29,059 nt of DNA, taken from Myxococcota bacterium. GTDB taxonomy: Bacteria; Myxococcota_C; UBA6777. Location of the stretch: assembly GCA_023150835.1 (NCBI GenBank), contig JAKLKB010000083.1:1-29059 (forward strand). Reading direction: 5' to 3'. The position numbers and the translations under genes are program-made. The number at the start of each line of letters is the position of its first letter. Positions within the stretch are counted from its first letter, which is position 1. Positions 110 to 29,059 of the stretch are shown in pieces. The notes under the pieces were generated by a model. It was given only the letters and a program-made list of their open reading frames with translations, had not been told where the DNA came from and did not search any database.

Positions 110-215
110 TACGAGATCCGCCTGTAGTGTGATCGTCAAAGGTAGGGGCAGCCTTGTGTGGCTGCCCAATCACAGGGCGTCTACGTACTCTCGTACACAT
201 CACCCAGATATAGTA
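110..215. mobile_element. MITE copy A (TACGARATCC family)
   Basis: The left end TACGAGATCCGCC follows TGA (107-109). The right end, AGATATAGTA, is a decayed inverted copy. The interior carries the family hairpin GGGGCAGCC / GGCTGCCC around 147-168. No coding capacity is seen. It lies downstream of the expansin gene, which ends at 390 on the minus strand. The right flank does not show a matching target duplication, so this is an older or eroded copy. Confidence 0.7.
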
Positions 216-4599: not shown

Positions 4600-4877
4600 A
4601 TCCGAAGACAAGACGGGGAGTTGAGCAAAAAGGCCGGATTATACGAGATCCGCAGGGCGTGTGATCGCAAAACGCAGGGGCAGACAGGTGTGGCTGCCCA
4701 ACGATCGGGCGTTTACACACTATCCTACGGGAACACATCACTCGGATATCGTATTATTCGGGAGAATGGCGTCGGAAGGCAGCGAGAAGGAAAACATCCG
4801 AAGACAAGGCGGGGAGTTGAGCAAAAAGGTCGGATTATTCGGGAGAATGGCGTCGGAAGGCAGCGAGAAGGAAAACC
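4600..4877. repeat. 81-bp tandem repeat, about 2.5 units, split by a MITE
   Basis: The block GGGAGAATGGCGTCGG begins at 4760 (ending 4775) and again at 4841, a period of 81 bp. The segment running from ATCCGAAGACAAG to CGGATTAT occurs at 4600-4642 and again at 4796-4838. The unit nearest the gene (from 4835 upward) is the genuine 3' end of the 581-aa membrane-protein gene; the others are downstream copies of that gene end. The far unit is interrupted by the MITE at 4642-4753. Confidence 0.85.
4642..4753. mobile_element. MITE copy B with visible empty site
   Basis: 112 bp. The ends are TACGAGATCCG and CGGATATCGTA (inverted, one mismatch). It is flanked by TTA at 4639-4641 and TTA at 4754-4756. 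The sister repeat unit at 4831-4845 reads CGGATTATTCGGG with a single TTA and no element, so it preserves the empty site and demonstrates a 3-bp target duplication. The inner hairpin is GGGGCAG / GTGGCTGCCC. It has no coding capacity. Confidence 0.88.
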
Positions 4878-6580
4878 GCCCCGATGGCAGCGAGAAGCAA
4901 AGAAAGCGTGACGGGGATCACTTGGGAGGGGGGCGGGGGGAGTAGTTCGCCCACGCGCAGGATCATGCTGTGTTCGGGAAAACGCACGCCTAGTTTTCGA
5001 AGGGCAGGGATCTCGTTAACGTTGATATTTTCATCGGGTAATTCGAGTTCAAGCGGCCCGGACGGGCGCAAACGCAAGGTCTTGAGAAGGCCCGTGTAGG
5101 TGCGCGCTGCGGGGACGTGGTTTGGATCTTGGAGGTCATCTTGCCAAACGGGTAAGCGCGTTATGCGGTCGGGTTCTTCGGGGTTTGTGACCACATCCTT
5201 CCATTCTTTTAAGATCTGCGATGCTTGTACAGGAGCAAGGATCAAAAGCTGCCGATGTTCGCGATCTGCAAACAACGCGTAAGATTCGACTTTTTGGGTC
5301 TTTGGAACTCGAACGGAGAGGATCGCAAAGGTCATCCGATCAGGGCGCACCGCGATCTGTGCGATACGAAACGAAGTGACGGTCTTGTTCGAGACTTCGG
5401 AGGCTTGCATGATCTGAGGGGAAGAGGGAGCCGAGGGGCCACCCGAAAAAAACAGCGCATAACCAAGCCACAAAAGGCCGAACAAAAGCAGCACTCCGCC
5501 TGACACCGCCATCCCGAGATGCGGCCCCGTCGCCAGCGGAGCCGCCACTTCTTCCTCGATGTCGTCTTCCCATGCTTCCGATGCAGGGATCGACGGAGGA
5601 GCGGTTCGGACAGAAGAAGCCGATGCGTTTTCCCCCACAGACGGCACAGGCCGCGCAGAAGAAGCTGCCAAAACGCCTGAATCATCCGCCTTTTCAGTCG
5701 AGGGCGGCAACGAAACGGAGGCTGCTTTGGTTTTCGTAGAAGGGGCTTTTTGGGGGGGCGACGCTTTTTGGGTAGATGAAGCTGTTTTGGAACCCAAAGC
5801 ATCGGTCTTTGGAGTGAGCGGGTCTGCTTTTGGAGAGGAAGCCAAAGCATGGATGGCGTCGGATTTTTGAGAAGAAGGAGAAGACGGCGTAGCCTCAGAG
5901 GGAGAAGCCTTTGCCTCGGCAGGTGCGGATGCAGCAGGCTTTTGGGTGGGCTTGGAAGGAGCGGGAGGGCTGGGTTTGTTGCTGCGTTGTTGTGCAAACA
6001 AATTGAGGATGCGGGATTCTTCACAGGGTCGGATCTGCATAAACCCCAAATCGACGAGCAGATCGCGCAGATCGGCGGGCGGTGCAAACATGACTTCGAG
6101 GACAAAAGAAGGCTGTTTTTTGGGATAACGCTTACGAAATGCGGAAGACGTGGTGTAGGCGATAGCGATCTGGACGCGCTCGCGGAGTTGACGCATCAAA
6201 AAAGGGTCCGCCTCCCAATCCAAGGGTTGAATCAAGATGATCTCTGCGAGCGTACCGCTTTCTTGCACACGATCGATGGCGGCGGGTGGGCCTTCTTCTT
6301 CGGGATCAAGAGGTCGAAGTTCGATGCCCTCCGTGACCAACCAACGGCGGATCTCAGGGGGAGGAGCAAACATAGTTTCGAGGATGATCTGTGCGGAGTG
6401 TGCGCGATATTGGATGCGAAACTGCGGATCGGCGAGTTGTTCTTGCTGCTTTGCAACCCGCTCCCGCAGAGATTTGACAAGATGAGGCTCCGTCTCCCAC
6501 TCTTTTGGTTGAAGAAAAACAAGCTCAATTCCACCGTCTTGTGCGCGCTGAATACGATCGGCTTGGGCATTGAAGACCAT
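4835..6580 (-). CDS. Membrane protein with duplicated N-terminal domain, unknown function
   Basis: 581 aa from ATG 6580 (GGAG at 6 nt). Residues 18-91 and 112-187 are two copies of one domain: both contain a QP-x-[ED]-W-E-[TA]-[ED]-P segment, LRERV and an E-[TV]-MFAPP motif. A Pro/Ala/Ser/Thr/Lys-rich linker (199-346) follows, then a membrane segment (356-378), a soluble region of about 175 residues and a second membrane segment near the end (554-574). The N-terminal pair should be cytosolic and the 380-553 region periplasmic. It is 26 nt downstream of the 293-aa gene and probably in one transcript with it. I recognise no family. Its last codons lie inside the tandem repeat. Confidence 0.8.
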   Translation of the reverse strand: MVFNAQADRIQRAQDGGIELVFLQPKEWETEPHLVKSLRERVAKQQEQLADPQFRIQYRAHSAQIILETMFAPPPEIRRWLVTEGIELRPLDPEEEGPPAAIDRVQESGTLAEIILIQPLDWEADPFLMRQLRERVQIAIAYTTSSAFRKRYPKKQPSFVLEVMFAPPADLRDLLVDLGFMQIRPCEESRILNLFAQQRSNKPSPPAPSKPTQKPAASAPAEAKASPSEATPSSPSSQKSDAIHALASSPKADPLTPKTDALGSKTASSTQKASPPQKAPSTKTKAASVSLPPSTEKADDSGVLAASSARPVPSVGENASASSVRTAPPSIPASEAWEDDIEEEVAAPLATGPHLGMAVSGGVLLLFGLLWLGYALFFSGGPSAPSSPQIMQASEVSNKTVTSFRIAQIAVRPDRMTFAILSVRVPKTQKVESYALFADREHRQLLILAPVQASQILKEWKDVVTNPEEPDRITRLPVWQDDLQDPNHVPAARTYTGLLKTLRLRPSGPLELELPDENINVNEIPALRKLGVRFPEHSMILRVGELLPPPPSQVIPVTLSLLLAAIGAVFLLAAFRRHSPE

Positions 6581-6606
6581 CACAAACTCCGAATAATAGG
6601 GGGGTT

Positions 6607-7488
6607 CTACTGACGCAACTCTTCTTGAAGAACGTGCATCCCTTCGCGCACTTCGCGAAACAACCAAGCGGCTTTGGAAAAAAACTCGGAAAAGACCTTG
6701 TGTTGGCGCTTATGAAGTTCAAGCATCTGTGTGCTTGCGCGTCGAAATGACCTCGATATCTCGTCATCCCCACGCAGCGGACATTGTTTCAACAGCACAT
6801 CCATCCGATGCTGCCAATCACGCGACCAGTCCTGCCAAGCCGTCAAATAATAACGATTCCCTCGCCGCACCCGAAACCATAAGTTTTTCGATTCTTGTTC
6901 CATCTCTTGATCGAGTCTTCGCAGACGCGCCACGCAAGTACGCAACCGATGCGGTGGCATCACATAGCCCTTGCGTTCGGTGTTTTCGAGCGGGATCCAG
7001 ACTTGTGGGGGTGCATGAACAGCCCGATAGATCGAAACAAAGATCGAGATCACCACCACGCCCGCAAACAGGCCAAAGCAGATCAACGCCACCAAACGCC
7101 CAAATCGTTGCGCTTCCTTTAAGGCGATCTGCTCGGGATCAAGGGGCTCTTCGACCTTTTTTTCCTGCCCCGCCTGCCAAGGGAAATACACCTCTTTGAT
7201 CGGATTGCTCGGAGCGGCTTCGCTGCTCTTCGCGGAGGCGGCTTCTTGTGTTGCGTCGGGCGTTCTTTCGGCCCTTTCTTCGTGGGCGGCTTCTTGGGCG
7301 ACGTTGGGCATCGACTCAACCTTTTTTTCGAGGGCGGCTTCGCTGCTTTTTTGGAAATAGGCTTCGCCAGTCTCTTCGCGAGCAACGGATCCGCTGTGAA
7401 GCGTTCTTGCCGCATCTTCCGCGACTTCAGCGATAGGTATCTCCGTAACGTGCAGCATGGACGGTGTAGACGGCTTTTGTTGCGGCAT
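6607..7488 (-). CDS. Single-pass membrane protein, unknown function
   Basis: 293 aa from ATG 7488, chosen because AGGAG stands 10 nt upstream; the frame is open further upstream but codes for an implausible Cys/Trp-rich stretch. Residues 1-120 are Glu/Ala/Ser-rich and probably disordered, with imperfect repeats of the type SSEAA. One membrane helix lies at about 132-156. The remaining 137 residues are basic with Trp-rich segments (YYLTAWQDWSRDWQHRM) and a helical tail. The architecture (cytosolic tail, one helix, outer domain) parallels the 581-aa protein encoded immediately downstream; they may act together. No known domain recognised. Confidence 0.75.
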   Translation of the reverse strand: MPQQKPSTPSMLHVTEIPIAEVAEDAARTLHSGSVAREETGEAYFQKSSEAALEKKVESMPNVAQEAAHEERAERTPDATQEAASAKSSEAAPSNPIKEVYFPWQAGQEKKVEEPLDPEQIALKEAQRFGRLVALICFGLFAGVVVISIFVSIYRAVHAPPQVWIPLENTERKGYVMPPHRLRTCVARLRRLDQEMEQESKNLWFRVRRGNRYYLTAWQDWSRDWQHRMDVLLKQCPLRGDDEISRSFRRASTQMLELHKRQHKVFSEFFSKAAWLFREVREGMHVLQEELRQ

Positions 7489-7570
7489 CGCGTTCGATCT
7501 CCTGCATAGAAAACACCTCACCAGAACGAAAAGGTGGATGGCCCCTGCCTTGCGAAAAAACGCACACAAG

Positions 7571-7648
7571 CTAACGCAGAACCAAGCCGTTGGGAAGAGC
7601 CATCGCAGCCACCCCACGCAGCAGCGGATCCGCATCGGTGAAGGTCAT
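7571..7648 (-). CDS. Possible 25-aa leader or remnant ORF
   Basis: The 202-bp gap between the phosphoesterase and the 293-aa gene contains an ATG at 7648 preceded by GAGGGGG, encoding a 25-residue peptide that ends in ALPNGLVLR. The phosphoesterase just upstream ends in KLPNMRILR, which is weakly similar. It could be a remnant of a duplicated gene end, a leader peptide or chance. A C/G-flanked T6 run (GCGTTTTTTCGC in the minus reading) follows. Confidence 0.2.
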   Translation of the reverse strand: MTFTDADPLLRGVAAMALPNGLVLR

Positions 7649-7690
7649 GGGGTGATTCCCCCTCAAAGCCACTTCGCGGCACGCATCCGT

Positions 7691-8860
7691 TCAGCGAAGA
7701 ATGCGCATATTCGGGAGTTTCAGCAGGGTTCGGCGATCCGAAGGTTGGCCGTGTAGAAAGGCGATTAGTGCTTTGGGATCGTTGGGTTTGTCGGGCGGAT
7801 ACCAAAAGGTATCTTGGCGGGCGGCTTGCGCGATCTGCGCGATCAAGATAGGCCAAGGCAGCCCGAGCGAATAGATCTGCAAAAGCTGCCCACTCGCATC
7901 CAGATCGAGGATGCGGATCTGCGAAGGATAGCTGCACGCGCCCGAGGTGACGATCTCCGTCACCGGCCACGCGGGATGCTTTTGAACGCGCTGGATGTGG
8001 TGATGCCCCGTCAGGACCAAAGGAACTTGATAATCCACCATCAACTTGAGGATGGCGTCTGCGTTGTCGGTGTGAAAGTTTCGCCACAGATGCCCTGAAT
8101 CCTCCCGATTTGCGGGATGATGGGGGATCAGCGTGTGATGGATCATCAAAAAGATCTGCTTCTTTCCTGCGTGGCGTTGTAGCGTCTGCTTGAGCCACGC
8201 AACTTGCGCATCATCCACACGACCATTCCATGTATCGCGCAACGTACCGTCTGGTGTGTCCGAGCTATTCAGGCCGATCACCATCAGACCACTCGTCACT
8301 TCGTGCGCATAATATGGCAAAGCGCTGTCGTATCCGCCGATCCTTCCGCGATACGCCGCCACCACCTCTCGAACGCCCCAGTTTTCTTTGGGCATCCACA
8401 CTTTCTGCACATCGTGATTGCCGGGAACAACGAGCGTTGGAAACGGCAGCGCCTTCAACATCCGCAACATCGCAGCGTGGTTCCAAGGCTCCGAATCCCG
8501 CGTCATGTCCCCCGGCAATAACAGCAAATCGACCTTTCTTCCCGTCAATCGGCCCATTTGATGCAGCGTTCGCAGATGATGCCCCACGATCCAAGGCGCA
8601 AACCGCAACGCCTTAAAATCCAAGCTCTGATCTCGCAACGCAAAGTGCGGATCGGTCATCACCCCGATCCGATAGCGCACTTTTTTGGGATCGACTTGCA
8701 TCAACGCTTGAAGATCATCGGCCAAAGCCAGCCCCTCTGTCGAAGGAAGGCCCCGTCCTGTCGGACGAGTCGTCTGCCCCCAAGCTTCTTCGCCCCCCAC
8801 ACACACTGCCCCTGCCGCTACTCCCCACAATAGGCTCCACAAAAACTCCCGACGTTCCAT
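7691..8860 (-). CDS. Tat-exported metallophosphoesterase (CpdA-like)
   Basis: 389 aa from ATG 8860, with AAGGAG about 11 nt upstream. The N-terminus ERREFLW followed by a hydrophobic stretch is a twin-arginine signal. All blocks of the calcineurin-like phosphoesterase fold are present: DPH (70-72), PGDM (116-119), PGNHD (146-150), HH (241-242) and GHHH (285-288), which bind two metals. The family includes cyclic-nucleotide phosphodiesterases and other phosphoesterases. The signal places it in the periplasm, so a cytosolic cAMP role is unlikely. It starts 23 nt after the TrmN6-like gene and is probably co-transcribed with it. Confidence 0.87.
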   Translation of the reverse strand: MERREFLWSLLWGVAAGAVCVGGEEAWGQTTRPTGRGLPSTEGLALADDLQALMQVDPKKVRYRIGVMTDPHFALRDQSLDFKALRFAPWIVGHHLRTLHQMGRLTGRKVDLLLLPGDMTRDSEPWNHAAMLRMLKALPFPTLVVPGNHDVQKVWMPKENWGVREVVAAYRGRIGGYDSALPYYAHEVTSGLMVIGLNSSDTPDGTLRDTWNGRVDDAQVAWLKQTLQRHAGKKQIFLMIHHTLIPHHPANREDSGHLWRNFHTDNADAILKLMVDYQVPLVLTGHHHIQRVQKHPAWPVTEIVTSGACSYPSQIRILDLDASGQLLQIYSLGLPWPILIAQIAQAARQDTFWYPPDKPNDPKALIAFLHGQPSDRRTLLKLPNMRILR

Positions 8861-8883
8861 CACTTCCGACGCTCCTTGTGGAT

Positions 8884-9837
8884 TCACCACCCAAGCCAAG
8901 CCCACGGATCACCCCGTAGCAACGCCTCGATCACTTGGGTATACACACGATGTTCACGATACAACACACAGCGCGAAAAATTCGGAGAGGATGCAGAAAC
9001 CCCCACAGACGCCCCCACAGACGCCCCCACAGACGCCCCCACAGTCTCCGAAAACGCATCCACCGCTTCATCCGAAACACTTACAGTCTCCGAAGACGCA
9101 TCCACCACAACGCCAGAACAAGCCTCGATCAAGACCAATTCTGCGGGGGCCTCTTCAAAGGGATGCACCGAACGGATATGCGAAGCTTGCCAACCAAAGC
9201 GCTCAAAAATGCGCAGCAGCCGAGCCGATTGCTTTGCAGGAAATACCCACAACGACACGCCTTCCACAGACAACATCGAATTTGCGGCAGAGGCGATCTC
9301 AACAAGCTCTCCGTGGATCTCGTGACGCGCCGCAGCACGCTCGGGGTGGCGGCTGACATCTCCCGCTGATACGGGCTGATACGGTGGATTGCAGGTGAGC
9401 AGATCGACCGCTTGTGCAGGCCGCCATGCACGCAGATCCGTGTGAACCAAAGAGATCACGCCCTCGCGCTGATTGGCCCGTAGATTCGCCCGCGCCAAAG
9501 AGATCATCGACGCCTGCACCTCCACCGCTGACCACCCTTCAAAGACCCCAAAAGCCTGCAATGGTCGGGCTTCTGCAACGCGATCTGCAAGATACAACGC
9601 CGCCAACGGAACCACACCGCTGCCCGTACAAAGATCGACCGCCCCGATCGACCGATGGATACGGTTTTGCAACAACAGCGCTCGTTCCACAGCAAAGGCT
9701 GCCAACAACACCGCATCAATCGAAAAACGATACCCTTTTTGATGTTGAAAGATCGTCACAGCGCGGCCAAAGATCCCATCCTCCGAGATCGGCCAATCTC
9801 CATACAACGGCACAACCAAACCCTCACCTGCTCCCAT
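8884..9837 (-). CDS. TrmN6-like tRNA/N6-adenine methyltransferase with repeat-bearing tail
   Basis: 317 aa from ATG 9837; no good ribosome binding site is visible and the frame is open upstream. The HQKGYRFSIDAVLLAAF block (about 31-48) is typical of the tRNA1(Val) adenine-37 N6-methyltransferase family (TrmN6/YfiC). SAM motif I is DLCTGSG (68-74) and the catalytic motif is NPPY (150-153), as in N6-adenine and N5-glutamine enzymes. The family is usually about 245 aa. Here a Ser/Val/Glu/Asp/Ala stretch of about 55 residues ending in VGAS repeats is inserted before a final conserved-looking RCVLYREHRVYTQVIEALL tail. The insert is encoded by a 12-bp minisatellite. Confidence 0.75.
   Translation of the reverse strand: MGAGEGLVVPLYGDWPISEDGIFGRAVTIFQHQKGYRFSIDAVLLAAFAVERALLLQNRIHRSIGAVDLCTGSGVVPLAALYLADRVAEARPLQAFGVFEGWSAVEVQASMISLARANLRANQREGVISLVHTDLRAWRPAQAVDLLTCNPPYQPVSAGDVSRHPERAAARHEIHGELVEIASAANSMLSVEGVSLWVFPAKQSARLLRIFERFGWQASHIRSVHPFEEAPAELVLIEACSGVVVDASSETVSVSDEAVDAFSETVGASVGASVGASVGVSASSPNFSRCVLYREHRVYTQVIEALLRGDPWAWLGW
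9000..9044. repeat. 12-bp minisatellite (CCCCCACAGACG), 3.75 copies
   Basis: Perfect units lie at 9000-9011, 9012-9023 and 9024-9035, followed by 9 bp of a fourth. The unit length keeps frame and adds Val-Gly-Ala-Ser on the minus strand within the TrmN6-like gene, so copy-number change would alter linker length only. Confidence 0.9.
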
Positions 9838-9879
9838 ACCAGACGGATAGATATCCCGCCGAAAACAGCCTGAACCCTC

Positions 9880-9908
9880 TTGGCGAAGGGTGAAAGATAT
9901 CCTATAGT
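9880..9908 (+). promoter_or_regulatory. Predicted sigma-70 promoter
   Basis: TTGGCG (9880-9885), a 17-nt spacer and TATAGT (9903-9908), matching consensus at 4/6 and 5/6. It lies about 100 nt before the coiled-coil protein start at 10006, in the gap to the divergent methyltransferase gene. Confidence 0.5.
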
Positions 9909-10005
9909 CGGCGCGCTCGCAAGCCGCAAGTGGCGGCTGAAAATGACGCAAGCGACCAGAAAAGACGCGCCACGACACCGACGATACGAGAGGATCAAAA
10001 GAAAG

Positions 10006-10509
10006 ATGTTCCAGCGCTTTGTTTCTCTATCGGCCCTATGCCTCGGCCTTTTCGCATCCCTCTCCCCAACACACGCCAACGAACCCTACACCAAAGAAGA
10101 ACTCAACCTCTCCAAACCACCGCCTGCACGCATTCAAGACAAGCGTCTCCAACGCGTCTACCAAACACTCGCCAAACAATACAAGCATGTCTACGGATAC
10201 GCCGCACAAGACGGCTACTTGATGCCCAGAGAGATCCAAGAACTCGGCTTCCATCGCCGATTGATCCGCCGCATCATCGATATCGACGAAAACTACGCAC
10301 AGCTCCGTAAAGAACTTCAAAGCCTCCATCAAAAAGCACGCACACTTCGCCGCCGTCGAAAAACGCTCGATCAGGCCGATCAAAAGCGACAAACTGAGCT
10401 GCTCGCCAAACAAGAACACATCGAACAGATGATCCGCCGCTTTGCTTGCCGACACGACGCGCAGTACAAACAACGCAACCCCAAACATTGCCCCAAGATC
10501 ACCCTCTAA
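10006..10509 (+). CDS. Secreted basic coiled-coil protein, unknown function
   Basis: 167 aa. The start at 10006 is set by a Sec signal peptide (MFQRF, hydrophobic core, THA cleavage near 24). The mature protein is rich in Arg, Lys, Gln and Leu. Residues about 95-150 form a predicted amphipathic helix with repeated RR, ELQSL, TLRRR and LLAKQEHIEQM, so it is a likely periplasmic coiled coil. Two cysteines lie near the C-terminus. The J-like protein gene begins 43 nt downstream, so the two may share a transcript. No family recognised. Confidence 0.7.
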   Translation: MFQRFVSLSALCLGLFASLSPTHANEPYTKEELNLSKPPPARIQDKRLQRVYQTLAKQYKHVYGYAAQDGYLMPREIQELGFHRRLIRRIIDIDENYAQLRKELQSLHQKARTLRRRRKTLDQADQKRQTELLAKQEHIEQMIRRFACRHDAQYKQRNPKHCPKITL

Positions 10510-10552
10510 CACGGCACGCACAAAGCCCGAAGTATCGCCGGACAGGGTTCGC

Positions 10553-11620
10553 ATGGCTCACTCTCCACCCAAAACACCACCACCGCCATCCAACCCCAGC
10601 ACCCAACCCCCTCAAAGCATTCCGCTCTCTTCTGCGCCTTCCACCTTTCCTGTTCCACCTTCCACCTTTCCTGTTCCACCTTCCGCGCCGCCACCTCCGC
10701 CTCTTGTTCCTGTTCCTCCTTCGGCCCGTTCCGTTTCGCCTCAACCACCCGAGCCGAGCCGAAAGGCGCGGCTCGGTTTTGGTGCAGTCGCGGATCCACA
10801 CAGCGACTTTTACCAGATGCTCGGGATCGAAGCACGCGCATCCATCGCCGAGATCGACGAAGCGCTGCGTTCTGGCGTTCGTTGGTGGAACGGACAACAA
10901 GCCAACCCCAAATATCGACACCTTGCCCCTGAAGCTCTCGCAAGGCTCCGTGAAGCTCGTGAAACCTTGCTCGATCCGATGTGTCGTCAAAATTATGACC
11001 GCTCGATCCAAGCCTTTCGCCATGCGCACCGCGAAGCCCGTTGGCAGCCGATCCGCGATCTCATGGATGTCCTGTTCCGCAAACCCCCCGCCACCACCGC
11101 CCAAGAAGACCTACTGATCCGCTACGCGCAAAAGCGCGGACTGGACGACGATGAGATCGAACGACTTATCCAAGAAGAATTCTTGCGACGTGGCCTGACA
11201 CGCCCCCTCCGCATCGCTCCCAACGCCGTCCCCCAACACCCCCCAAACGTCCGTTTCGGTTATCGCGTATCCATCGCAGCCATCGGACTCTGCACCGTCG
11301 GGTTGGTCGCCATGTCGCTGTTTGATCTTTCCCGTCCTGCCGTCCTTTTGATGCTTCCTCTACTCAACAACCTCCGACTGCTTGTGCGCGGATTGCACCT
11401 GCCCGAACGCACCGAAAAGGACCAGCCCAACGCATGGGATTGGATGGTCGGGATCACTGTGCTTGGTGGTTCGACACTCGCCGCTCTCGCCGATGCGTGG
11501 CGCTCCAGCCTGTTTCCTTTGGGCGCAAGCGTCTCTGTTCTGATCTGGTTGACTTGGCTGCAGATTGTGTTGTTATGGCGCAAAACGCCGCTACGTCTCG
11601 AAGATCCTCTCGACGAATAA
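10553..11620 (+). CDS. J-like domain membrane protein without HPD
   Basis: 355 aa from ATG 10553 (AGGG 6 nt upstream); the frame is open further upstream but overlaps the previous gene. Residues 1-80 are Pro-rich with a FPVPPST repeat. Residues about 84-153 look like a DnaJ domain: DFYQMLGIEA, EIDEALR, then ALARLREARETLLDP and NYDRSI. However, the HPD tripeptide that stimulates DnaK is missing, replaced by a WWNGQQANPKYR segment. A helical region follows (about 165-215), then hydrophobic segments forming three or four membrane helices in two blocks (about 230-275 and 305-345). It is probably an inner-membrane J-like protein that binds a partner other than, or not activating, DnaK. Confidence 0.75.
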   Translation: MAHSPPKTPPPPSNPSTQPPQSIPLSSAPSTFPVPPSTFPVPPSAPPPPPLVPVPPSARSVSPQPPEPSRKARLGFGAVADPHSDFYQMLGIEARASIAEIDEALRSGVRWWNGQQANPKYRHLAPEALARLREARETLLDPMCRQNYDRSIQAFRHAHREARWQPIRDLMDVLFRKPPATTAQEDLLIRYAQKRGLDDDEIERLIQEEFLRRGLTRPLRIAPNAVPQHPPNVRFGYRVSIAAIGLCTVGLVAMSLFDLSRPAVLLMLPLLNNLRLLVRGLHLPERTEKDQPNAWDWMVGITVLGGSTLAALADAWRSSLFPLGASVSVLIWLTWLQIVLLWRKTPLRLEDPLDE

Positions 11621-11795
11621 CCGATGTAGCACCAGCTTTTTATGAGTGGCGTGACGTGTTGTGACCACGAGCTGCACTACAACCAAGCCGTTCACGGGCG
11701 GAGGTATCCGCGCAAAAGACCGCTCCTCTTTTCCACCCTCGCCGTCTTGCCCCCAACACAAGCCGGCACAACCACTCAACCCAACGAGAGGTGCG

Positions 11796-12269
11796 ATGGA
11801 ACGCATCGGAATTCACTGTCAAACCTACGGCCATTGGAAGGATATTCTTGTTTGCGCGATGTCGTGCCCTCACAATCAACGCTGCAAACAATTTTCCGCA
11901 TGGCGCGAAGACCACGAAGAAGTCTTGTGGAAGCGCGTACTTTCTTATCTACGCGCCCATCCCGAACACCCCTACCGACTTGATTTTCACCCCATACCCT
12001 CAACCCTCTGGGAGGATCACATGAAACGCTACGCATGCCTTATCGGCGAAACCATCCAAATCAAAACCGAAGAAGAGATCACCGAACACCTCCTTTCTGG
12101 CGGCGAGATGTTCGAGCAGATCATCGAACTGGGCCGAGAGATGGAGATCCAAATCAAACTCGTCCCAAGCAGCGGCCCCAAACCCGCCAAAGAAGTCGAA
12201 GACAACGGCATCTCCGCCAAACCCAAAAAGAAGAAACCCTCCGATAAAACCGCCGAAGCTGCCGCCTAA
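11796..12269 (+). CDS. Small cytosolic protein, unknown function
   Basis: 157 aa from ATG 11796, with AGAGG 5 nt upstream. It starts without a signal peptide and has a Cys cluster near the N-terminus (HCQTYGHW, then CAMSCPHNQRC), which could bind metal or an Fe-S cluster. A central HPIPSTLWEDHMKRY segment, a Glu-rich helix and a Lys-rich tail ending in AEAAA follow. The TAA stop (12267-12269) is also the left target duplication of MITE copy C. It is separated from the J-like gene by 175 bp. No family recognised. Confidence 0.7.
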   Translation: MERIGIHCQTYGHWKDILVCAMSCPHNQRCKQFSAWREDHEEVLWKRVLSYLRAHPEHPYRLDFHPIPSTLWEDHMKRYACLIGETIQIKTEEEITEHLLSGGEMFEQIIELGREMEIQIKLVPSSGPKPAKEVEDNGISAKPKKKKPSDKTAEAAA

Positions 12270-12456
12270 GACGAAATCCGCCCATCGTGTTACCGTAATG
12301 GTGTAGGGGCAGCCCCCTGTGGCTGCCCAAGCACAGGGCGTCTGGTTTGACAGTGTTCTACTCTCTGCAAAAAAATCAAAGGGCAGCCACAGAGGGCTGC
12401 CCAAGCACAGGGCGTCTGGGCGCTATCCTTCGATCATAGATCACTCGGATTTCGTA
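12270..12456. mobile_element. MITE copy C inserted between convergent stop codons
   Basis: 187 bp. The left end is GACGAAATCCGCC and the right end CGGATTTCGTA. It is flanked by TAA at 12267-12269 and TAA at 12457-12459, a perfect 3-bp duplication. It carries two inner modules, each with a GGGCAGCC / GGCTGCCC stem, and a 25-bp direct repeat (12321-12345 and 12395-12419). The left TAA is the stop of the 157-aa gene. The right end supplies the last codons and stop of the minus-strand ligase gene. It may also terminate both transcripts through its hairpins. Confidence 0.88.
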
Positions 12457-13148
12457 TAAACCCCTCCCCTCGCAACGGAAGGATCGAGAAGATCCGCAGC
12501 AAGCAGGACAGGCAATCGCAGCGACAGGTGCGATTGCAGCCGTGTTTGCAAGGCCAAAAGATCACATCGTAAGCCGCGATCACGCAAGTTGGTTGTAAAG
12601 TCCCGATGTTCGCGACCTTCCCGATAATCGGGCTCGCGGGGCGGATGTTGGAGATAGCGCCCGAACAGATCGCGTGCAGCGTCGACCAGCAAGACAGCCT
12701 GATACACAAGCAGATGGCGTTGGCGACGCAATGACGAGCCGAGGATCTTGCGCCCATCGATCGCAAGGTCGGACATCCCACGCTGTACGACATCGCCGAT
12801 ACCGTCCGATGCAAGGGCTTCTTGGAGTGGTGTTTGGATCAAATGAAAGTAGCGTTTGTTTCCAAAAGGATCGCTCAGATACGCGGCAACCGCAACAATC
12901 AACATCCCGGGAGCCAAAACGACGGTTCCTCCGCCGCCTTGGCGGCGATACAGCGGGATCTGTTCTCGTTGCACAACATCCAGATGCAGATCGCGTTTTG
13001 CATCGCAGCCTTTGCCCAAAACGATGCATAATTGTTCTTGGGCAAAGACCTTGCAGCACCACGCATCGCCGCTGTGTTCGAGTTGATCGACGATCTGCTG
13101 ATCTCCCGAATAATCGGGGATCAACAAGCCTGCATCGCGATCAGGCAC
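12441..13148 (-). CDS. Lipoate/biotin protein ligase family protein (LplA-like)
   Basis: About 235 aa if GTG 13148 is the start; there is no clear ribosome binding site and the frame is open upstream, but upstream codons lie in MITE sequence. Key blocks of the LplA/LipB superfamily are present: RRQGGGGTVV (68-77), and SDLAIDGRKILGSS (126-139) with the conserved Lys at 134. The family transfers lipoyl, octanoyl or biotinyl groups to carrier lysines. This is a short, single-domain member. Its final residues (YTKSE) and stop are encoded by the end of MITE copy C; removing the MITE would give a stop right after Val230. Function as a lipoate ligase is likely but the substrate is not certain. Confidence 0.75.
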   Translation of the reverse strand: MPDRDAGLLIPDYSGDQQIVDQLEHSGDAWCCKVFAQEQLCIVLGKGCDAKRDLHLDVVQREQIPLYRRQGGGGTVVLAPGMLIVAVAAYLSDPFGNKRYFHLIQTPLQEALASDGIGDVVQRGMSDLAIDGRKILGSSLRRQRHLLVYQAVLLVDAARDLFGRYLQHPPREPDYREGREHRDFTTNLRDRGLRCDLLALQTRLQSHLSLRLPVLLAADLLDPSVARGGVYTKSE

Positions 13149-13218
13149 AAAAGAAGAAGGGGGTGGATGGATCAAGTGATTTGTAGGTTCCTGAGAAATA
13201 AGGGAATCGATCCAATAA

Positions 13219-13339
13219 GACGATATCTGAGAGAAGTGTACACAAAGGGTAGGTGCGATCCGCTGTAGACGCCCTGTGTTTGGGCAGCCACGGGGGGCTG
13301 CCCCTACATCTTGACGATCACACGATGGGCGATTTCGTA
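13219..13339. mobile_element. MITE copy D
   Basis: 121 bp. The left end is GACGATATCTGAG after TAA (13216-13218). The right end, GCGATTTCGTA, directly precedes TTA (13340-13342), which is the stop codon of the Cys-rich lipoprotein. The inner hairpin (GGGCAGCC / GGCTGCCC) is in the opposite orientation to copy C. The flanks CCAATAA and TTATTGG extend the inverted repeat. The two TNA flanks differ, so a clean target duplication is not shown. Confidence 0.8.
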
Positions 13340-14557
13340 TTATTGGCAGGTTCCTTTGCCAAGGACGCACTGTTTGTTTCCGCCGATGCTCAGACAATTG
13401 TATTCTTGGCCGACCTTGGGGGTAGGACAATCCGTGTCCACGTTACACGCTTTGCCGCAAAACTTGGTTCCGTTGTAATCGACGCAAAGGTTGGCGGTCG
13501 ACACGCCGATATTGCAGTCTTTGTCGGCAGTACAAGGATCACAGGTTTGCGGGATCTTTTTGCACTTGCCTTCCACGCAGATCTCTTCGCCTGCCTTGCA
13601 AGAAACTCCCACACAAGGATCGGCGCAAAAGTCTGTTTGCGGATAGCAGACTTTGGAACCTGCGACTTTGTCTGACGAACAAAAGAAGCCTTGTGGACAA
13701 TCGTTGGTGCCTTCGCAAGCCGTCAAACAACGCGGGCCATCCTTGAGTCCCTTGTCTTTTTGAACACAAAAGTCCTTGCTGATGCCGCAGTCGCTGTCGT
13801 TGGTACAGGTCGCACAAAGGCCCTTTTTACAAACGCCGCGTTGATCGTTGGCGGTGGGATCGCAGCGTGTCAGATCCGAACCGGGGTTGCGCTTGACGCA
13901 GTCTGCGTCCGTTTTGCAGATGATCGGGGGCTTACAGAAATAACTTTCGCACACAGGCTTTTGGCTATCGGTGCAGTCCTTGTCTTCGCGGCATTGGACT
14001 TGTCGGCATTGCTTATCGCGGCAAGCCTGACGCGCAGGGCAATCGCCGTCGGCAAGACAAGCCACGCACTTCGCGGTGTCTGCATCGCATTTGGGTTTTG
14101 TGGCTTCTTTGCAGTTGTTATCGGACTGGCAAGCTGCGACACGACAGCATTGTTCTCCGCAGACCGTACCTGTCGAACAATCCGAGTTGCTCTTACAAGA
14201 AAGCGCGCACAAGTTACACTTAAATCCCGCCCCGTCAGGGATACACTCGCCCCCCATACCGCAGTCCGTATCCTTCTTGCAATCTTTTCCGCTGTTGGCG
14301 TAGGCCCCGCAACATCCGCTGTTGCAGATCTCGTTGGTCTTGCAATCTTTGCGATCCACACAAAGGCTTGCGCCACCCGCACAGGTGTTGCACTTGGCTT
14401 TTTCCACGCAGGTGGGATTGCTTTGGTATTGAGCGGTCTTACAACAAACCTGTTGATCCATGCAGTCTGTGTCTGCTGTGCAAGTGGCGGGACCACTCGG
14501 ACAGCCCGAGGACATCAACAGAACAAAAAAAACAATACAATACAAAAGGATACGCAT
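13340..14557 (-). CDS. Cysteine-rich lipoprotein with Dickkopf-like repeats
   Basis: 405 aa from ATG 14557 (GGAG 6 nt upstream). A short signal peptide ends at the lipobox MSSGC. The mature part holds about 60 cysteines in serial C-x(5-8)-[DN]-x-DC units (TADTDC, DRKDC, KDTDC, KSNSDC, REDKDC, KTDADC, TNDSDC, TADKDC, NVDTDC), with many CC pairs. This is the Dickkopf-N-like repeat style common in surface proteins of Myxococcota and relatives. It is probably an extracellular, disulfide-rich, outer-membrane-anchored protein of adhesive or protective type. The stop codon TAA touches MITE copy D. Confidence 0.82.
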   Translation of the reverse strand: MRILLYCIVFFVLLMSSGCPSGPATCTADTDCMDQQVCCKTAQYQSNPTCVEKAKCNTCAGGASLCVDRKDCKTNEICNSGCCGAYANSGKDCKKDTDCGMGGECIPDGAGFKCNLCALSCKSNSDCSTGTVCGEQCCRVAACQSDNNCKEATKPKCDADTAKCVACLADGDCPARQACRDKQCRQVQCREDKDCTDSQKPVCESYFCKPPIICKTDADCVKRNPGSDLTRCDPTANDQRGVCKKGLCATCTNDSDCGISKDFCVQKDKGLKDGPRCLTACEGTNDCPQGFFCSSDKVAGSKVCYPQTDFCADPCVGVSCKAGEEICVEGKCKKIPQTCDPCTADKDCNIGVSTANLCVDYNGTKFCGKACNVDTDCPTPKVGQEYNCLSIGGNKQCVLGKGTCQ

Positions 14558-14909
14558 CTTCTTCTCCGGCATCGGTGCGATCAGGGCAAGGAGCCACCAT
14601 CGAAAGGGCAGATGTAGCGAGCAGAAGGCTTTCCTGTCAAGAGGGTTCCCCATCCCGCTGGCTTCTACCCGCGTACGACAAGCCCGTACTTCCTTTTGCG
14701 TTGTTTTTTCGTGACAAGCAAAATCTTTTGCGCTGTTTTTTCTCGACAGGCTCGATCGAGTTCCAAGCCCAAGCCCGCATCGCGTTCTTCTCGGTTGCGT
14801 CCTGCGCATCTCCCATCAAAGCCGTCGCCTCAGATCGGTGCCTTGTGTTCTTTTGACGATCCACTACAGTTCTTTGCGCTTGTACTGCCACAAAGGAGCC
14901 TCCTTCGAG

Positions 14910-17900
14910 ATGACCGCGAACAAACAAGATCCCGCCGATCAAGGGGGATGGTACACCATTGCTGTGGCTCGCCTTTTCCGCCTTCAACGGCAAGAAGTCG
15001 AGCGCGTTTCGTGGATGTTTGTTTACAGCTTGCTTGCTGTAGGCGCTTTCATCCTTGGGCGAATTGTCCGTGATACGCTGTTGCTCTCTCTTCCTCGAAA
15101 TCAGGGTCTTGATGCGCTACCGTGGTTGATCGCTCTCTCCGCAGTGGCCGTCAGTGCGGCGTCTTATGCCCTGTCGCGAACCACCAGCGAGCGCCGCCGC
15201 GATCAAACCATCCAGATCGTGAACCTTGCCCTCGTTGGATGCCTTTTTGTGTTGTATCTTGGGCGACTGCTGTTGCCGCCAAGCGTGGGCTTTGTAAGCG
15301 TCCAAGCCACTTACGTTTATGTCGAAGTGATGGGCGCTTTGCAAGTCATCTTGTTTTGGACCTTTGCTTCGGAGCTCTTTGATCCAAGAGCGGCACGCCG
15401 CAGCTTCGCCATCATCGGGGGCGGTGCCGTCCTCGCCAACCTGTTGGCTTTTGGCATCCGCCCCTTGCTCTCGGTGCTTTCCGACCCCCATCACTTGCTG
15501 TGGGTGTTGTGCTTGATGATGCTTGGTTGCGTATGGGTGGTTCGCCGCATCGGGCAACAAAACCTCGCAACCCTCGAAGAGAGCGCACGAAAGAAAAAAC
15601 CTTCTACACGCCCACACACTCCCAAACAACGCAAAGAGCGCGCATGGCTCAGTCATCCCCATCTCGCTGTCTTGGCGATGATCGTTGGCGTCACCTTTGT
15701 GGCCTCGACCTTGATCGACTATCAATTCAAAGCCATCGTCGCCCAAACCTACCGAACCCCCGAACAGATCGGGAGCTACTTGGGTTCTTTTTATGGCATC
15801 ACGGGGATCTTTGCTTGCGCTGTCCAATTTGGCCTTGCAAACCCGATACTGCGGCGTTTTGGGATACGCTTCTCTTTGCTGCTTTTGCCTCTTGCTCTGC
15901 TTGGAGGATCTGCCTCGCTCGGATGCTCTCTGCTGCCCGCCCTGCTGGCGATCGCCTTCACCAAGGGCAGCGAGAATGTCTTGCGTTATACGCTGTACGA
16001 TGTTTCGCAAAATCTGTTGTATGTACCGATAGTCGGGCCTTTGCGTGCGCGAGCCAAAGGGTGGATCGATGGAATCCTCAAACCTGCAGCGATCGGGTTC
16101 AGCGCGATCGGGATCGCCCTTTTCGGATACTTGGGGGTATCCTCACATCGGCTTTCTTGGGTGGTGGTTGGGCTGCTTTGTGTATGGATCATCCTGATCT
16201 TTCGTGTTCACCGAGAATACGTCGCCACGCTTGTGCGCTCCATGCAACGCAGCCGACTCGGCCTCGAAGGTTCCGCCCTCCATCTTGATTCCGAAGCCTC
16301 CGCCCTCGCTTTGCGCAGCGTCCTCTCCCAAGGCACACCACAACAAATCCTCCATGCCATCGAGCTATTACCTCACATGGCAGAACATTCTTGGTCTTCC
16401 GAGATCGCCCGTCTGTTGAAAAGCCCCCACACCGAAGTCTGCATCGCGGCCCTCACTATCCTCCCACACCTCCATGAAACCCAACACGACGCATCGATCC
16501 GCCCCCTTCTCAAACATCCCGACGATCAGGTTCGCGCCCAAGCTATCGAGATCCTGTGTATCTTGCGCACAGAAGACGCAACCCACGATGTCCTCCCCCA
16601 CCTCGGAGATCCTGCTCTCTCCGTTCGTAAAGCCGCCATCATCGGCCTGATCCGCGATGGCGGCCTTGATGGTGTGTTGCATGCCGCCGAACCCTTCAAA
16701 CGTATGCTTGATTCCCCCGATCCTACACAACGTCAATGCGGAGCAGAGATCATCGCTTCTCTTGGCGTGCGCACTTTCTATCAACCGATCCTGCGTATGC
16801 TCCAAGACCCCATCCTCTCGGTTCGCATCAAAGCCATCCAAGCAGCGGGTTCCCTTCGCTCTGCGCATTTCACCGACGCGCTCTTTTCGATGCTCCACGA
16901 ACGCTATGTGTCCTCTCATGCAGCCCGTAGCCTCGGACTTTACGGACCCGTTCTCTTGCCTCGGATCCAAGAAAAGCTCGCCGATCCCACACAAGCACCG
17001 ATCTCTCCCCTTCTATTTCGCATCCTCAGCGCGATCCCCCAACCCGAAACACTCGCTCTCCTTGAGCAGCTTCTCCCCAAACAATGCGCCTCTCGGCGCT
17101 CTGTTGTCTTACGCGCCATCTCTCGGCTCCGCCAACTACAACCCAACCTTCACCCCGATGTCGCCCTGCTCCGCTCTTGCCTTCGCACTGCCCTTCACGA
17201 CGCCTACTTCTGGCAACTCGCCAAACAAACCCTTCACGCCTCTTTCCCCCAAGCCACCGCCCTCCACGATGCTCTCCACGAACGTACTCACCTCGCACAA
17301 CAAGAGATCTTTCTTCTGATCGACCTGATTTTTCCGCACCAACAGATCACCTTGATCCACCAAAAGCTCCTCCAATCCGACACACGCTTACGAGCCAACG
17401 CGCTCGAACTCCTCGACAACCTCCTTCAACCCGAACCCCGCACGCGCCGAGTCTTGCTTCCTCTTCTCGAAGGTGCCCACTCCATCGAGCGCATTGCCCT
17501 TGAATTCTTTCAACTCAAGCCCCTGCCGCTGCCTGCCCTGATCCCCTCCTTCCAAAAAGAACCTTGCCTTTATGCCTTCCTTCTTTGGACGCTCGCAACC
17601 GACCAAAACACCCCACCCACCGATCTTTTTCTTCAAGCCCGCAGTTCTCCCGATCCCTTGCTGCGCGAACTCACAGCCCTCCTGCTTTCTCGCACACTCC
17701 CAACCCACGAACGTGATGCGCACCTCGCTCCTCTTTTGCAGGACACTTCTCCAACCGTGGCGCGATACGCCAACGTCCTGCTTTCTCGCACACCACACGA
17801 GGCCCCCATGCTTTCGACCTTTGAAAAGATCCTTTTCCTCAAAGAAGTCGACTTGTTTCAACGTCTTTCCACCGAAGATCTCTCGCAGATCGCACAGATC

Positions 17901-18254
17901 GCCGAAGAGATCCACGTCGAAAAGGACGAAGACGTGATCGTCGAAGGCGAACTCGGCGATGCCCTCTACATTTTGATTGAAGGCTCCGTCTCCGTGTTCA
18001 AAGAAGGCATCCTCTTGACCACGTTGCGCGAAAAAGAACCCTTCGGAGAGATGGGAGTGCTCGACCATGCCCCGCGTTCTGCAACAGTCCGCGCCCTCGA
18101 AGACCTTCGGCTTCTCAAGATCGAACAACAGGCATTTCGCGATCTCATGGACGATCGTATGGAGATCGCCCACAGCGTGATCCAAGTCCTGCTCAACCGA
18201 CTCCGCAAAGCCAACCAATCCTCCGTACAATCTCCCGAAAAATCTACGTTCTGA
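14910..18254 (+). CDS. Nucleotide-transporter-like MFS protein fused to HEAT repeats and a cyclic-nucleotide-binding domain
   Basis: 1114 aa from ATG 14910 (AAGGAG 11 nt upstream). Residues about 35-440 form some twelve membrane helices resembling the ATP/ADP translocase (Npt/Tlc) superfamily: GAFILGRIVRDTLLLS, a central charged linker, and FTKGSENVLRYTLYDVSQNLLYVP. Residues about 455-950 are HEAT-like repeats (SPHTEVCIAALTILPHL, HPDDQVRAQAIEIL, DPALSVRKAAIIGLI and others). Residues 967-1114 form a cNMP-binding domain with phosphate-binding cassette FGEMGVLDHAPRSATV (about 1045-1060). It is likely an inner-membrane transporter or sensor gated by a cyclic nucleotide, although cassette presence alone does not prove binding. 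The kinase gene follows on the same strand. Confidence 0.85.
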   Translation: MTANKQDPADQGGWYTIAVARLFRLQRQEVERVSWMFVYSLLAVGAFILGRIVRDTLLLSLPRNQGLDALPWLIALSAVAVSAASYALSRTTSERRRDQTIQIVNLALVGCLFVLYLGRLLLPPSVGFVSVQATYVYVEVMGALQVILFWTFASELFDPRAARRSFAIIGGGAVLANLLAFGIRPLLSVLSDPHHLLWVLCLMMLGCVWVVRRIGQQNLATLEESARKKKPSTRPHTPKQRKERAWLSHPHLAVLAMIVGVTFVASTLIDYQFKAIVAQTYRTPEQIGSYLGSFYGITGIFACAVQFGLANPILRRFGIRFSLLLLPLALLGGSASLGCSLLPALLAIAFTKGSENVLRYTLYDVSQNLLYVPIVGPLRARAKGWIDGILKPAAIGFSAIGIALFGYLGVSSHRLSWVVVGLLCVWIILIFRVHREYVATLVRSMQRSRLGLEGSALHLDSEASALALRSVLSQGTPQQILHAIELLPHMAEHSWSSEIARLLKSPHTEVCIAALTILPHLHETQHDASIRPLLKHPDDQVRAQAIEILCILRTEDATHDVLPHLGDPALSVRKAAIIGLIRDGGLDGVLHAAEPFKRMLDSPDPTQRQCGAEIIASLGVRTFYQPILRMLQDPILSVRIKAIQAAGSLRSAHFTDALFSMLHERYVSSHAARSLGLYGPVLLPRIQEKLADPTQAPISPLLFRILSAIPQPETLALLEQLLPKQCASRRSVVLRAISRLRQLQPNLHPDVALLRSCLRTALHDAYFWQLAKQTLHASFPQATALHDALHERTHLAQQEIFLLIDLIFPHQQITLIHQKLLQSDTRLRANALELLDNLLQPEPRTRRVLLPLLEGAHSIERIALEFFQLKPLPLPALIPSFQKEPCLYAFLLWTLATDQNTPPTDLFLQARSSPDPLLRELTALLLSRTLPTHERDAHLAPLLQDTSPTVARYANVLLSRTPHEAPMLSTFEKILFLKEVDLFQRLSTEDLSQIAQIAEEIHVEKDEDVIVEGELGDALYILIEGSVSVFKEGILLTTLREKEPFGEMGVLDHAPRSATVRALEDLRLLKIEQQAFRDLMDDRMEIAHSVIQVLLNRLRKANQSSVQSPEKSTF

Positions 18255-18396
18255 TTTTAACGCCTTGCCGCTCAAATCCTTGCGCCTTTGCTTCTATGCG
18301 AAGATAATGCGAGTGTTTGCTTGGAAAGAGCGCACAACAAACAAATCCTTGTTCCTCCACATCAAGCGGGCCATCGCTGCGCAAAGTACTCTCACC

Positions 18397-20640
18397 ATGC
18401 AAGAGGACGCCCCATTGAGCCACTTAGAACAGCGCATCATCGCAGAAGGTCGATACAAACTCCTACGCCCCTTCGCACGCGGCGCGCACGCAGAGATCTG
18501 GGAAGCCCAACAATCGGGCTTTGAAGGCTTTCAGCGTACCGTTGCCATGAAGATCGTTCGCATCACCCCCGAGATACCTGATATATCGCGTGAAAGCCTC
18601 TTGCGTGAAGGGCGCCTCGCCGCCATCCTCAACCACCCCAATATCGTCCAGATCTACGATGTCGGCGAAGAAAACGACCTTGTCTACATCGCGATGGAAT
18701 ATGTTCGCGGCCTCGATCTGCGACGTTGTTTGCTCCGACACACCCAACGCTACAACGCCCCTCTCCCTTGGCCGATGGTTGCGGGCCTTGGCGCATTGAT
18801 CGCTCGTGGACTTTACCATGCCCACGAACAAAAAGACGAACGCGGCACCCCCCTTCGCATCGTTCACCGAGATATCAAGCCAAGCAATGTGCTGCTTTCT
18901 CGGGATGGACTCGTCAAGCTGATCGACTTTGGGATCGCCAAAAGCTTTACCCTCTCAAGCAACCGTTCTCTCGACTTCAAAGGGACGGTGGCTTATGTTT
19001 CCCCCGAACAACTCCTCGCAAAAGAAGTCGATCATCGTAGCGATTTATTCTCTCTTGGCGTCCTCCTTTATGAGATCCTTGCTGGAACACGCCCATTTGG
19101 CCCCAAAGGGGCCGCTTTCGGAGAGATTATGCACGCCATCCTCCAGTCCGAAGTAACACCTTTGCGCGCATACAACCCAGATATCCCCGCAGTGTTCGAC
19201 AATTTGGTTTTGTCGCTGCTTGACAAAGAGCCTGCATCGCGCCCCGATTCCGCCCGAGACGTGTTTCGATGTCTCGAAAACCTTCTGCGCGACGAGCAAC
19301 ACTACATCCACCAAGAAGATTACGCGGACTTCTGTGAGACCCTTTTTCAAGAGCACAGCACAGCAGTCTCTGAACCTCCCCCTGCTCCGCCCGATACGGC
19401 CCCAAACTCTCCCGAACACAACCAACAACAAACCGCCTTGTCTTCGGGCTTTTCGACACTCCCTTCCCCACCCACCGAAACGGTGGACTACGACCAAGCC
19501 ACCACCCTCCTGCCCGGGCTTCGGCTTGAAGACTTTCTACCACCTCCCGAGGCCATCCCTCCAGCAGATCCCGATCTCTCCACCGATCCACAGGCTCTCC
19601 AACGCCCGCCCCCCTCTCCCCATCTTCCTTCTTCACGCCCCCGCGCTCTATCTCCCCATGAATCCGCACAAACCACTACACAGCCTGCCGTGTCTTCCCA
19701 TAAACCGGCACAAACCACTACACAGCCTGCCGCGTTTTCCCATGAATCCGCACAAACCGCCACACAGCCTGCCGTATTCCCTGCCGTATCTCCCCATGAA
19801 TCCGCACAAACCACGCTCCAACAGGCGATCTCCTCTGATGAGCAAGACGAGATCACGCACCTAGCCGCCTCTGCTTATTTAACCTCTTCCGACACCGCAA
19901 ACCTCACCTACCTCAAGGAAGACGACGAAGGCGAAAACACCAACGCCAATCCATCCGAAACATCCGACGCCTCCGAAGATGCGGGTGATGAAACCAGCCT
20001 GTCCCATCCTTCCGCATCCATCGAACTCCCGACATTCGTGTCTTCTCACTCTCAAGGAGCTTTACCCGCTCTTGCCGCAACACTCCCTGACAGTGTTGTT
20101 CATCTCCACAAACGCCCGTCATCCGTTCCTTATGCGCAGCTTCCTGTCACGCCGCCACACACACACCACGTCGCTCACCTCAATGAAACCACCCAACCCA
20201 CCGACACCACAAACCAAGAACAGACCGATCCGTCCGCCGTTCTCATCGGAAAACTCGATCCAAGCGAACAAACCAGCCGCTTTTTCATCCCCCCCACTGA
20301 AAAAGCCCTCCCCCAAATCGACCCTGTTCCTGTTCTGGTTGGAACGATCTCCCCCGAATCATCGCCTCTTTGGAACGCTTCTCCGCCCACATCGACCCGA
20401 TCAACCTCTTCGAACAAACCTTCCACAAACCGACCGTCGCCTCCACCCACCTCTTCGCCCTTTGCACACATGCCCTCGATGACTCCCCGCCCAATGCAGC
20501 CCCCTTCTTCGATCGCTTCCGAACCGACGGTCATCACCAGCACCCCTTCGCTGCTTCAAAAGCCCGGATTCTGGATGTTTGTGATCACGCTTTCTTTGCT
20601 TGCGGGGGGCTTTGTCGCTTGGTTTCTACGCAAAGGCTAA
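18397..20640 (+). CDS. Eukaryote-like Ser/Thr protein kinase with C-terminal membrane anchor
   Basis: 747 aa from ATG 18397; the start is uncertain because no clear ribosome binding site exists there, and an ATG at 18307 is an alternative. The kinase domain (about 19-306) has VAMK (Lys52), Glu71 in the C-helix, HRDIKPSN (157-164), DFG (177-179) and SPE (202-204). The Gly loop is unusual (ARGAHAEIWE, lacking the first and third Gly positions). A 390-residue Pro/Ser/Thr/Glu linker follows, with a repeated HESAQTTTQPA-type unit near 19640-19820, then one membrane helix (last 25 aa). Catalytic residues are intact, so it is probably active. It resembles myxobacterial Pkn kinases. The stop TAA touches a MITE-end relic. 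Confidence 0.9.
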   Translation: MQEDAPLSHLEQRIIAEGRYKLLRPFARGAHAEIWEAQQSGFEGFQRTVAMKIVRITPEIPDISRESLLREGRLAAILNHPNIVQIYDVGEENDLVYIAMEYVRGLDLRRCLLRHTQRYNAPLPWPMVAGLGALIARGLYHAHEQKDERGTPLRIVHRDIKPSNVLLSRDGLVKLIDFGIAKSFTLSSNRSLDFKGTVAYVSPEQLLAKEVDHRSDLFSLGVLLYEILAGTRPFGPKGAAFGEIMHAILQSEVTPLRAYNPDIPAVFDNLVLSLLDKEPASRPDSARDVFRCLENLLRDEQHYIHQEDYADFCETLFQEHSTAVSEPPPAPPDTAPNSPEHNQQQTALSSGFSTLPSPPTETVDYDQATTLLPGLRLEDFLPPPEAIPPADPDLSTDPQALQRPPPSPHLPSSRPRALSPHESAQTTTQPAVSSHKPAQTTTQPAAFSHESAQTATQPAVFPAVSPHESAQTTLQQAISSDEQDEITHLAASAYLTSSDTANLTYLKEDDEGENTNANPSETSDASEDAGDETSLSHPSASIELPTFVSSHSQGALPALAATLPDSVVHLHKRPSSVPYAQLPVTPPHTHHVAHLNETTQPTDTTNQEQTDPSAVLIGKLDPSEQTSRFFIPPTEKALPQIDPVPVLVGTISPESSPLWNASPPTSTRSTSSNKPSTNRPSPPPTSSPFAHMPSMTPRPMQPPSSIASEPTVITSTPSLLQKPGFWMFVITLSLLAGGFVAWFLRKG
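19655..19830. repeat. Imperfect coding repeat in kinase linker
   Basis: Four copies of a unit of about 45-60 bp encode variants of (S/P)HESAQTTTQPAV: SPHESAQTTTQPAV, SSHKPAQTTTQPAA, FSHESAQTATQPAV and SPHESAQTTLQQAI. All stay in frame and lengthen the low-complexity linker. Confidence 0.75.
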
Positions 20641-20657
20641 GACGATATCCGCTCTAT
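20641..20657. repeat. Relic or solo MITE end between convergent stops
   Basis: The 17-bp gap between the kinase stop TAA (20638-20640) and the TPR lipoprotein stop (TTA, 20658-20660) begins GACGATATCCGC, matching the MITE terminal repeat in 12 of 12 positions of consensus GACGAWATCCGC. No second end is present. It looks like a deleted copy or footprint, still bracketed by TNA sites. Confidence 0.5.
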
Positions 20658-28738: not shown

Positions 28739-28773
28739 CGCTACCCCCCTCCCCACCCACAAGGCAGGACTTA

Positions 28774-28895
28774 TACGAAATCCGCCCGTTGTGTGATCGT
28801 AAAAATGTAGGGGCAACCCCCCGTGGCTGCCCAAAAATCGGGCGGTTCGCGAACCGCCCCTACATCATGCGATCATACATGACGCGGAGATCGTA
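28774..28895. mobile_element. MITE copy F
   Basis: 122 bp. Ends TACGAAATCCGCC and GCGGAGATCGTA. It is flanked by TTA (28771-28773) and TGA (28896-28898), both TNA but not identical. It holds both inner modules: GGGGCAACC...GGCTGCCC and the 20-bp palindrome GGGCGGTTCGCGAACCGCCC (28840-28859). It is 35 bp downstream of rsmB. Confidence 0.85.
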
Positions 28896-28980
28896 TGAGA
28901 GGGTGTCTAACATAGCGATATCTTTTGGACTGGTAGACAGAAACATCGGAGGAATGGACGTCTTGTGATGTCCCCTCTCA

Positions 28981-29059
28981 GACGAGATCCGCCCGTTGAG
29001 TGATCGTAAAAATGTAGGGGCAGCCCCCTGTGGCTGCCCAACCATCGGGCGGTTCGCGA
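28981..29059. mobile_element. MITE copy G, cut by the window end
   Basis: The left end GACGAGATCCGCCC follows TCA (28978-28980). The interior is nearly identical to copy F through the GGGCGGTTCGCGA module, where the window stops. The closest relative is copy F, about 85 bp away, in the same orientation. Confidence 0.8.

Follow-up and report, generated by a model that had tools for sequence, protein, structure and literature searches.

The window, the whole stretch of 29,059 nucleotides that was analysed, was contig C17 of a 7.56-Mb Myxococcota genome assembled into 239 contigs with a completeness of 93%. It carried copies of a MITE of about 112 bp with inverted ends TACGANATCCG (also given as TACGANATCCGNNNNNTGTGTGATCG), a TNA target duplication and inner GTAG-tagged REP hairpins. 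KLAP109, a Myxococcota MAG of the same genus that carries the element, was used as the sister genome. The following features were considered:

110-215, plus strand: copy A; left TGA at 107-109, GTAG REP hairpin at 142-167, right flank degenerate (TCG); off stops
4642-4753, plus strand: copy B, 112 bp; TTA target duplication at 4639-4641 and 4754-4756
4835-4837, minus strand: true stop of a 610-aa ORF (TTA; TAA on the minus strand); the surrounding GGATTATTCGG is the empty version of the copy B target
12270-12456, plus strand: copy C, 187 bp; TAA duplications at 12267-12269 and 12457-12459, REP hairpins at 12307-12328 and 12381-12402
12441-13430, minus strand: LplA-type lipoate ligase ORF (lplA); stop TGA 12441-12443 now within copy C
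13219-13339, minus strand: copy D; right end touches TTA 13340-13342; also present in the sister genome
13340-14809, minus strand: gene of a Cys-rich protein of 489 aa; its TAA stop touches copy D and is TGA in the sister genome
20638-20660, plus strand: alleged relic, made up of the TAA stop of a kinase gene and GACGATATCCG
28774-28895, plus strand: copy E (28771-28898 with flanks); TTA and TGA at its flanks, with the nearest stop about 32 bp away
from 28981, plus strand: copy F (feature 28978-29059), cut by the contig end

The contacts with gene ends that the preliminary description had reported were confirmed for copies B, C and D. The left end of copy C directly followed TAA 12267-12269, the stop of a plus-strand ORF (11661/11796-12269), and the right end of copy D adjoined the stop of the Cys-rich ORF at TTA 13340-13342. 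At 4600-4876 a gene-end segment was present as a tandem duplication. Copy B occupied only one of the two units, leaving a filled and an empty site side by side, and the right flank of copy B duplicated the gene stop found at 4835-4837 in the tandem copy. No stop was contacted by copies A, E and F. The relic that had been placed at 20641 on the kinase stop was rejected as an element, the resemblance to an end being limited to the 11 bases of GACGATATCCG; the sister genome had TAG followed by AGCGATATCCAATCC at this position and was element-free.

The region of the window was 87-95% identical to KLAP109. The site of copy C was empty there, reading GCCGCCTAACTCCC (GCCGCC-TAA-CTCCC) with the stop already in place, and the site of copy B was also empty with its TTA present, which shows that the element inserted into existing stop codons. 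At four further stop insertions (contigs C12, C38, C53 and C75) the joined flanks matched KLAP109 unbroken over about 200 bp. At the stop insertion of contig C22 the sister genome had about 118 extra bases, so that this site is occupied there. Copy D, common to both genomes, is an old insertion.

The target of copy C consisted of two overlapping convergent stops, TAA on the plus strand and TAG on the minus strand, the latter being the stop of lplA in the sister genome. The plus-strand gene kept its TAA and an unchanged protein end (..AEAAA*). The lplA gene lost its TAG, and the end ..RGGS* of the sister protein was changed to ..RGGVYTKSE*, with a new TGA located in the inverted repeat of the element. 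A gene stop lay inside the element at six ends of the sample. Similarly, a MITE at the 3' end gives enhC a new C-terminus in the case of QMITE2 of Coxiella burnetii; however, QMITE2 is unrelated in sequence and was described without stop-codon statistics (PMC5896051).

The genome-wide counts were obtained from 2.52 Mb in 99 contigs, about one third of the genome, by using a home-made gene caller and a 26-bp end profile with a cut-off of at least 14 bits. This search yielded 461 ends, when the reversed control gave none. Terminal inverted repeats were evident from 156 inward-facing pairs of ends, most of them 100-139 bp apart. A TNA was found on both flanks in 90 of the 156 pairs, and the duplications were identical in 64 of these 90. 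The idea that a TNA target makes stops near-harmless landing sites was upheld by these duplications, which recreate the stop, and by the empty sites of the sister genome. In total, 323 of the 461 ends adjoined a TNA, and the target logo showed a preference for TTA/TAA over TCA/TGA together with a G+C-rich flank motif. Contigs often broke at MITE copies, as at 29059 of the window and at the ends of contigs C1, C15, C20, C24 and C77, and thus the assembly probably under-counts the elements. The strict end motif was absent from three genomes of two other genera of the same family.

A typical copy read TACGA[A/G]ATCCGC...TGTGTGATCGTAAA..GTAG-GGGCAGCC-loop-GGCTGCCC..GGGCGTCTAC..CGATCACACATCACTCGGATATCGTA. 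Its core was an inverted pair of GTAG-tagged hairpins, a hallmark of REPs, and the strict motif (a GTAG tag with a palindromic stem-loop) occurred in 375 copies in the genome. Stem variants were often compensatory, AGCC/GGCT being replaced by AACC/GGTT or GGTT/AACC. The inner modules were also amplified in tandem, for example at C21:14960-15123, C62:16418-16521, C75:42748-43041 and L172:1128-1301, with periods of about 69, 39, 67 and 43 bp. Other small elements starting with GAGGGTGT were interspersed among the MITE copies at TNA sites (window 28899-28980 and L177 1463-1878). The latter had GAGGGTGTTTGCGAAAAAGTG ends with TTA on each side and carried a broken fragment of an IS5-type transposase; since this degraded transposase sat in an element of its own, it was rejected as the autonomous parent.

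No transposase gene was found inside the MITE at its typical length of about 112 bp, nor within two long end pairs that enclosed genes (C12 and C54). Pfam transposase matches in the 93% complete assembly numbered five for PF01609, one for PF13586, three for PF13358 and none for PF13359 and PF13340, and none of the PF01609 loci checked was framed by MITE ends. An IS5-type transposase with matching inverted ends was not found in the assembly, and the MITE was not filed as IS5. A RAYT-like gene was present as a 254-aa ORF (L172 1450-2214, minus strand) with a Pfam Y1_Tnp match above the cut-off; its best match, NCBIfam REP_Tyr_transpos, scored 58 bits, below the cut-off of 80. Five tandem REP units followed just past its stop, and within its coding sequence GQAQI units were encoded by an array of GTAGGGGCAGGC repeats in frame, so that REPs apparently lie inside their own transposase gene.

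IS5 groups of the IS1031/IS427 type have MITEs with TNA duplications, and the short inverted ends, the 3-bp TNA duplication and the lack of coding capacity are shared by the present element; unlike for those MITEs, a transposase with these ends was not found in this assembly. PIF/Harbinger elements are eukaryotic relatives of IS5 with a TWA duplication and a palindromic extended target, and their likeness is limited to the target. Target duplications are not known from REPs alone. The GTAG-REPs and BIME/REPIN dimers (Di Nocera 2013, PMC3733652) resemble the element in having GTAG and hairpin modules arranged as inverted pairs and as arrays, a RAYT gene beside an array, and a location mainly between tandem and convergent genes; here, in contrast, the REP core is enclosed by inverted ends with a demonstrated TNA duplication. 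REP dimers inside long palindromes have already been described in Anabaena variabilis (PMC3733652). The literature searched held no report of stop-codon enrichment of MITEs, nor any on MITEs of Myxococcota.

Exactly on a gene stop were 56 of the 323 TNA-bordered ends and none of the non-TNA ends, a number of contacts far above a positional shuffle; each position 1-40 bp away from a stop had about 1.5 ends. The excess was absent when the availability of TNA targets in the same intergenic regions was taken as the null. TAA and TGA, two of the three stop codons, are TNA by definition. Only 8 of the 323 TNA ends fell within genes, although genes made up 82% of the sequence, and in insertable DNA stops accounted for 9% of TNA sites, a share that rose to 15% when the sites were weighted by TWA and flank preference. 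Under a region-matched null weighted by target preference, 47 of 203 elements were on a stop when 47.7 were expected, and the fitted stop preference factor f was 1.01 (95% CI 0.60-1.68). In gaps of up to 100 bp, 20 elements at stops were observed versus 20.1 expected between convergent genes, and 7 versus 7.9 between tandem genes. It was concluded that stop codons are not favoured beyond their share among TNA targets.

Matched nulls superseded the roughly 2-fold stop enrichment seen under a first, class-level null. Over all gaps, with the middle base alone weighted, 28 convergent elements were at stops versus 14.9 expected (p = 3e-4); this excess was gone when gaps were limited to 200 bp, and genes missed by the caller in long gaps may be its source. 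For pairs with perfect duplications only, f was 1.49 (0.58-3.60), and a mild stop preference of up to about 1.7-fold is possible. Stop copies did not differ clearly in age as judged by end score (28.6 versus 30.6, p = 0.065). The true bias was that of the region, as with other REPs: per target site, convergent gaps held 2-4 times as many elements as tandem gaps, and divergent gaps fewer still. Enrichment between convergent genes is usual for REPs (PMC3733652) and is expected under selection against promoter disruption.

It is very likely that the stop contacts result from TNA target choice and the loss of harmful copies, with no affinity for stops. A transposase, which we infer to be probably of the DDE type, would insert the MITE into TNA and duplicate three bases, favouring TTA/TAA targets over TCA/TGA in the context of the G+C-rich motif. 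Because TAA and TGA stops are TNA sites and an insertion rebuilds the stop, copies at stops would survive, and copies within genes and promoters would be lost through purifying selection, as we infer. The gaps between convergent genes are short, and their TNA sites are for the most part the stops themselves, so that frequent contact would arise without any affinity for stops.

The preliminary description had suggested gene-end punctuation spread by transposition, in which the inner hairpins could act as portable bidirectional terminators; on such a reading the element would be retained at stops for ending transcription on either side. The density of elements in convergent gaps and the compensatory preservation of the REP stem are in line with such a role, which is nevertheless very improbable. 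An intrinsic terminator has a G+C-rich hairpin followed immediately by a U-tract, when most copies had 0-1 T in the 8 bases past the forward REP hairpin; terminator-like matches were at background level, in 6-7% of elements versus 9-10% of ordinary 3' flanks. There was no bias of end type at stops (p = 0.50), stop contact matched the target expectation, and stem conservation is equally expected of a RAYT substrate. Weak or Rho-linked effects on termination may occur. Active targeting, in which the transposase or a partner would recognise gene ends (such as complexes that have stalled, or a stop codon within its context), could explain the roughly 37-fold spike at distance 0 relative to neighbouring positions and the 2-fold excess under unweighted class nulls. 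It was judged very improbable: TAG, which made up 287 of 1600 stops (18%), was abutted by no end (p = 1.6e-5), a result that also counts against punctuation, and region-matched nulls abolished the excess.

By analogy with proposals for REPs and certain MITEs, the hairpins might instead stabilise the 3' end of mRNA or serve in RNA processing, leading to mild selective retention downstream of genes. The 3'-biased location and the inverted repeats would fit this, and REPs have been viewed as acting at transcript 3' ends (PMC3733652), but purifying selection alone predicts the same location, and the proposal was considered unlikely. It is quite improbable that gene-end copies are kept for a useful role at transcript ends, through termination or stabilisation, as a 3'-end module spread by transposition.

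On the preferred reading of target choice and loss of harmful copies, a three-base target rule makes stops safe sites, and about one quarter of the elements come to lie exactly on a stop without special targeting. Function should not be read into stop contacts unless the null is target availability. The element also provides a case of a MITE rewriting a gene end, that of lplA, and a case of REP hairpins carried within an element that has a TNA duplication.
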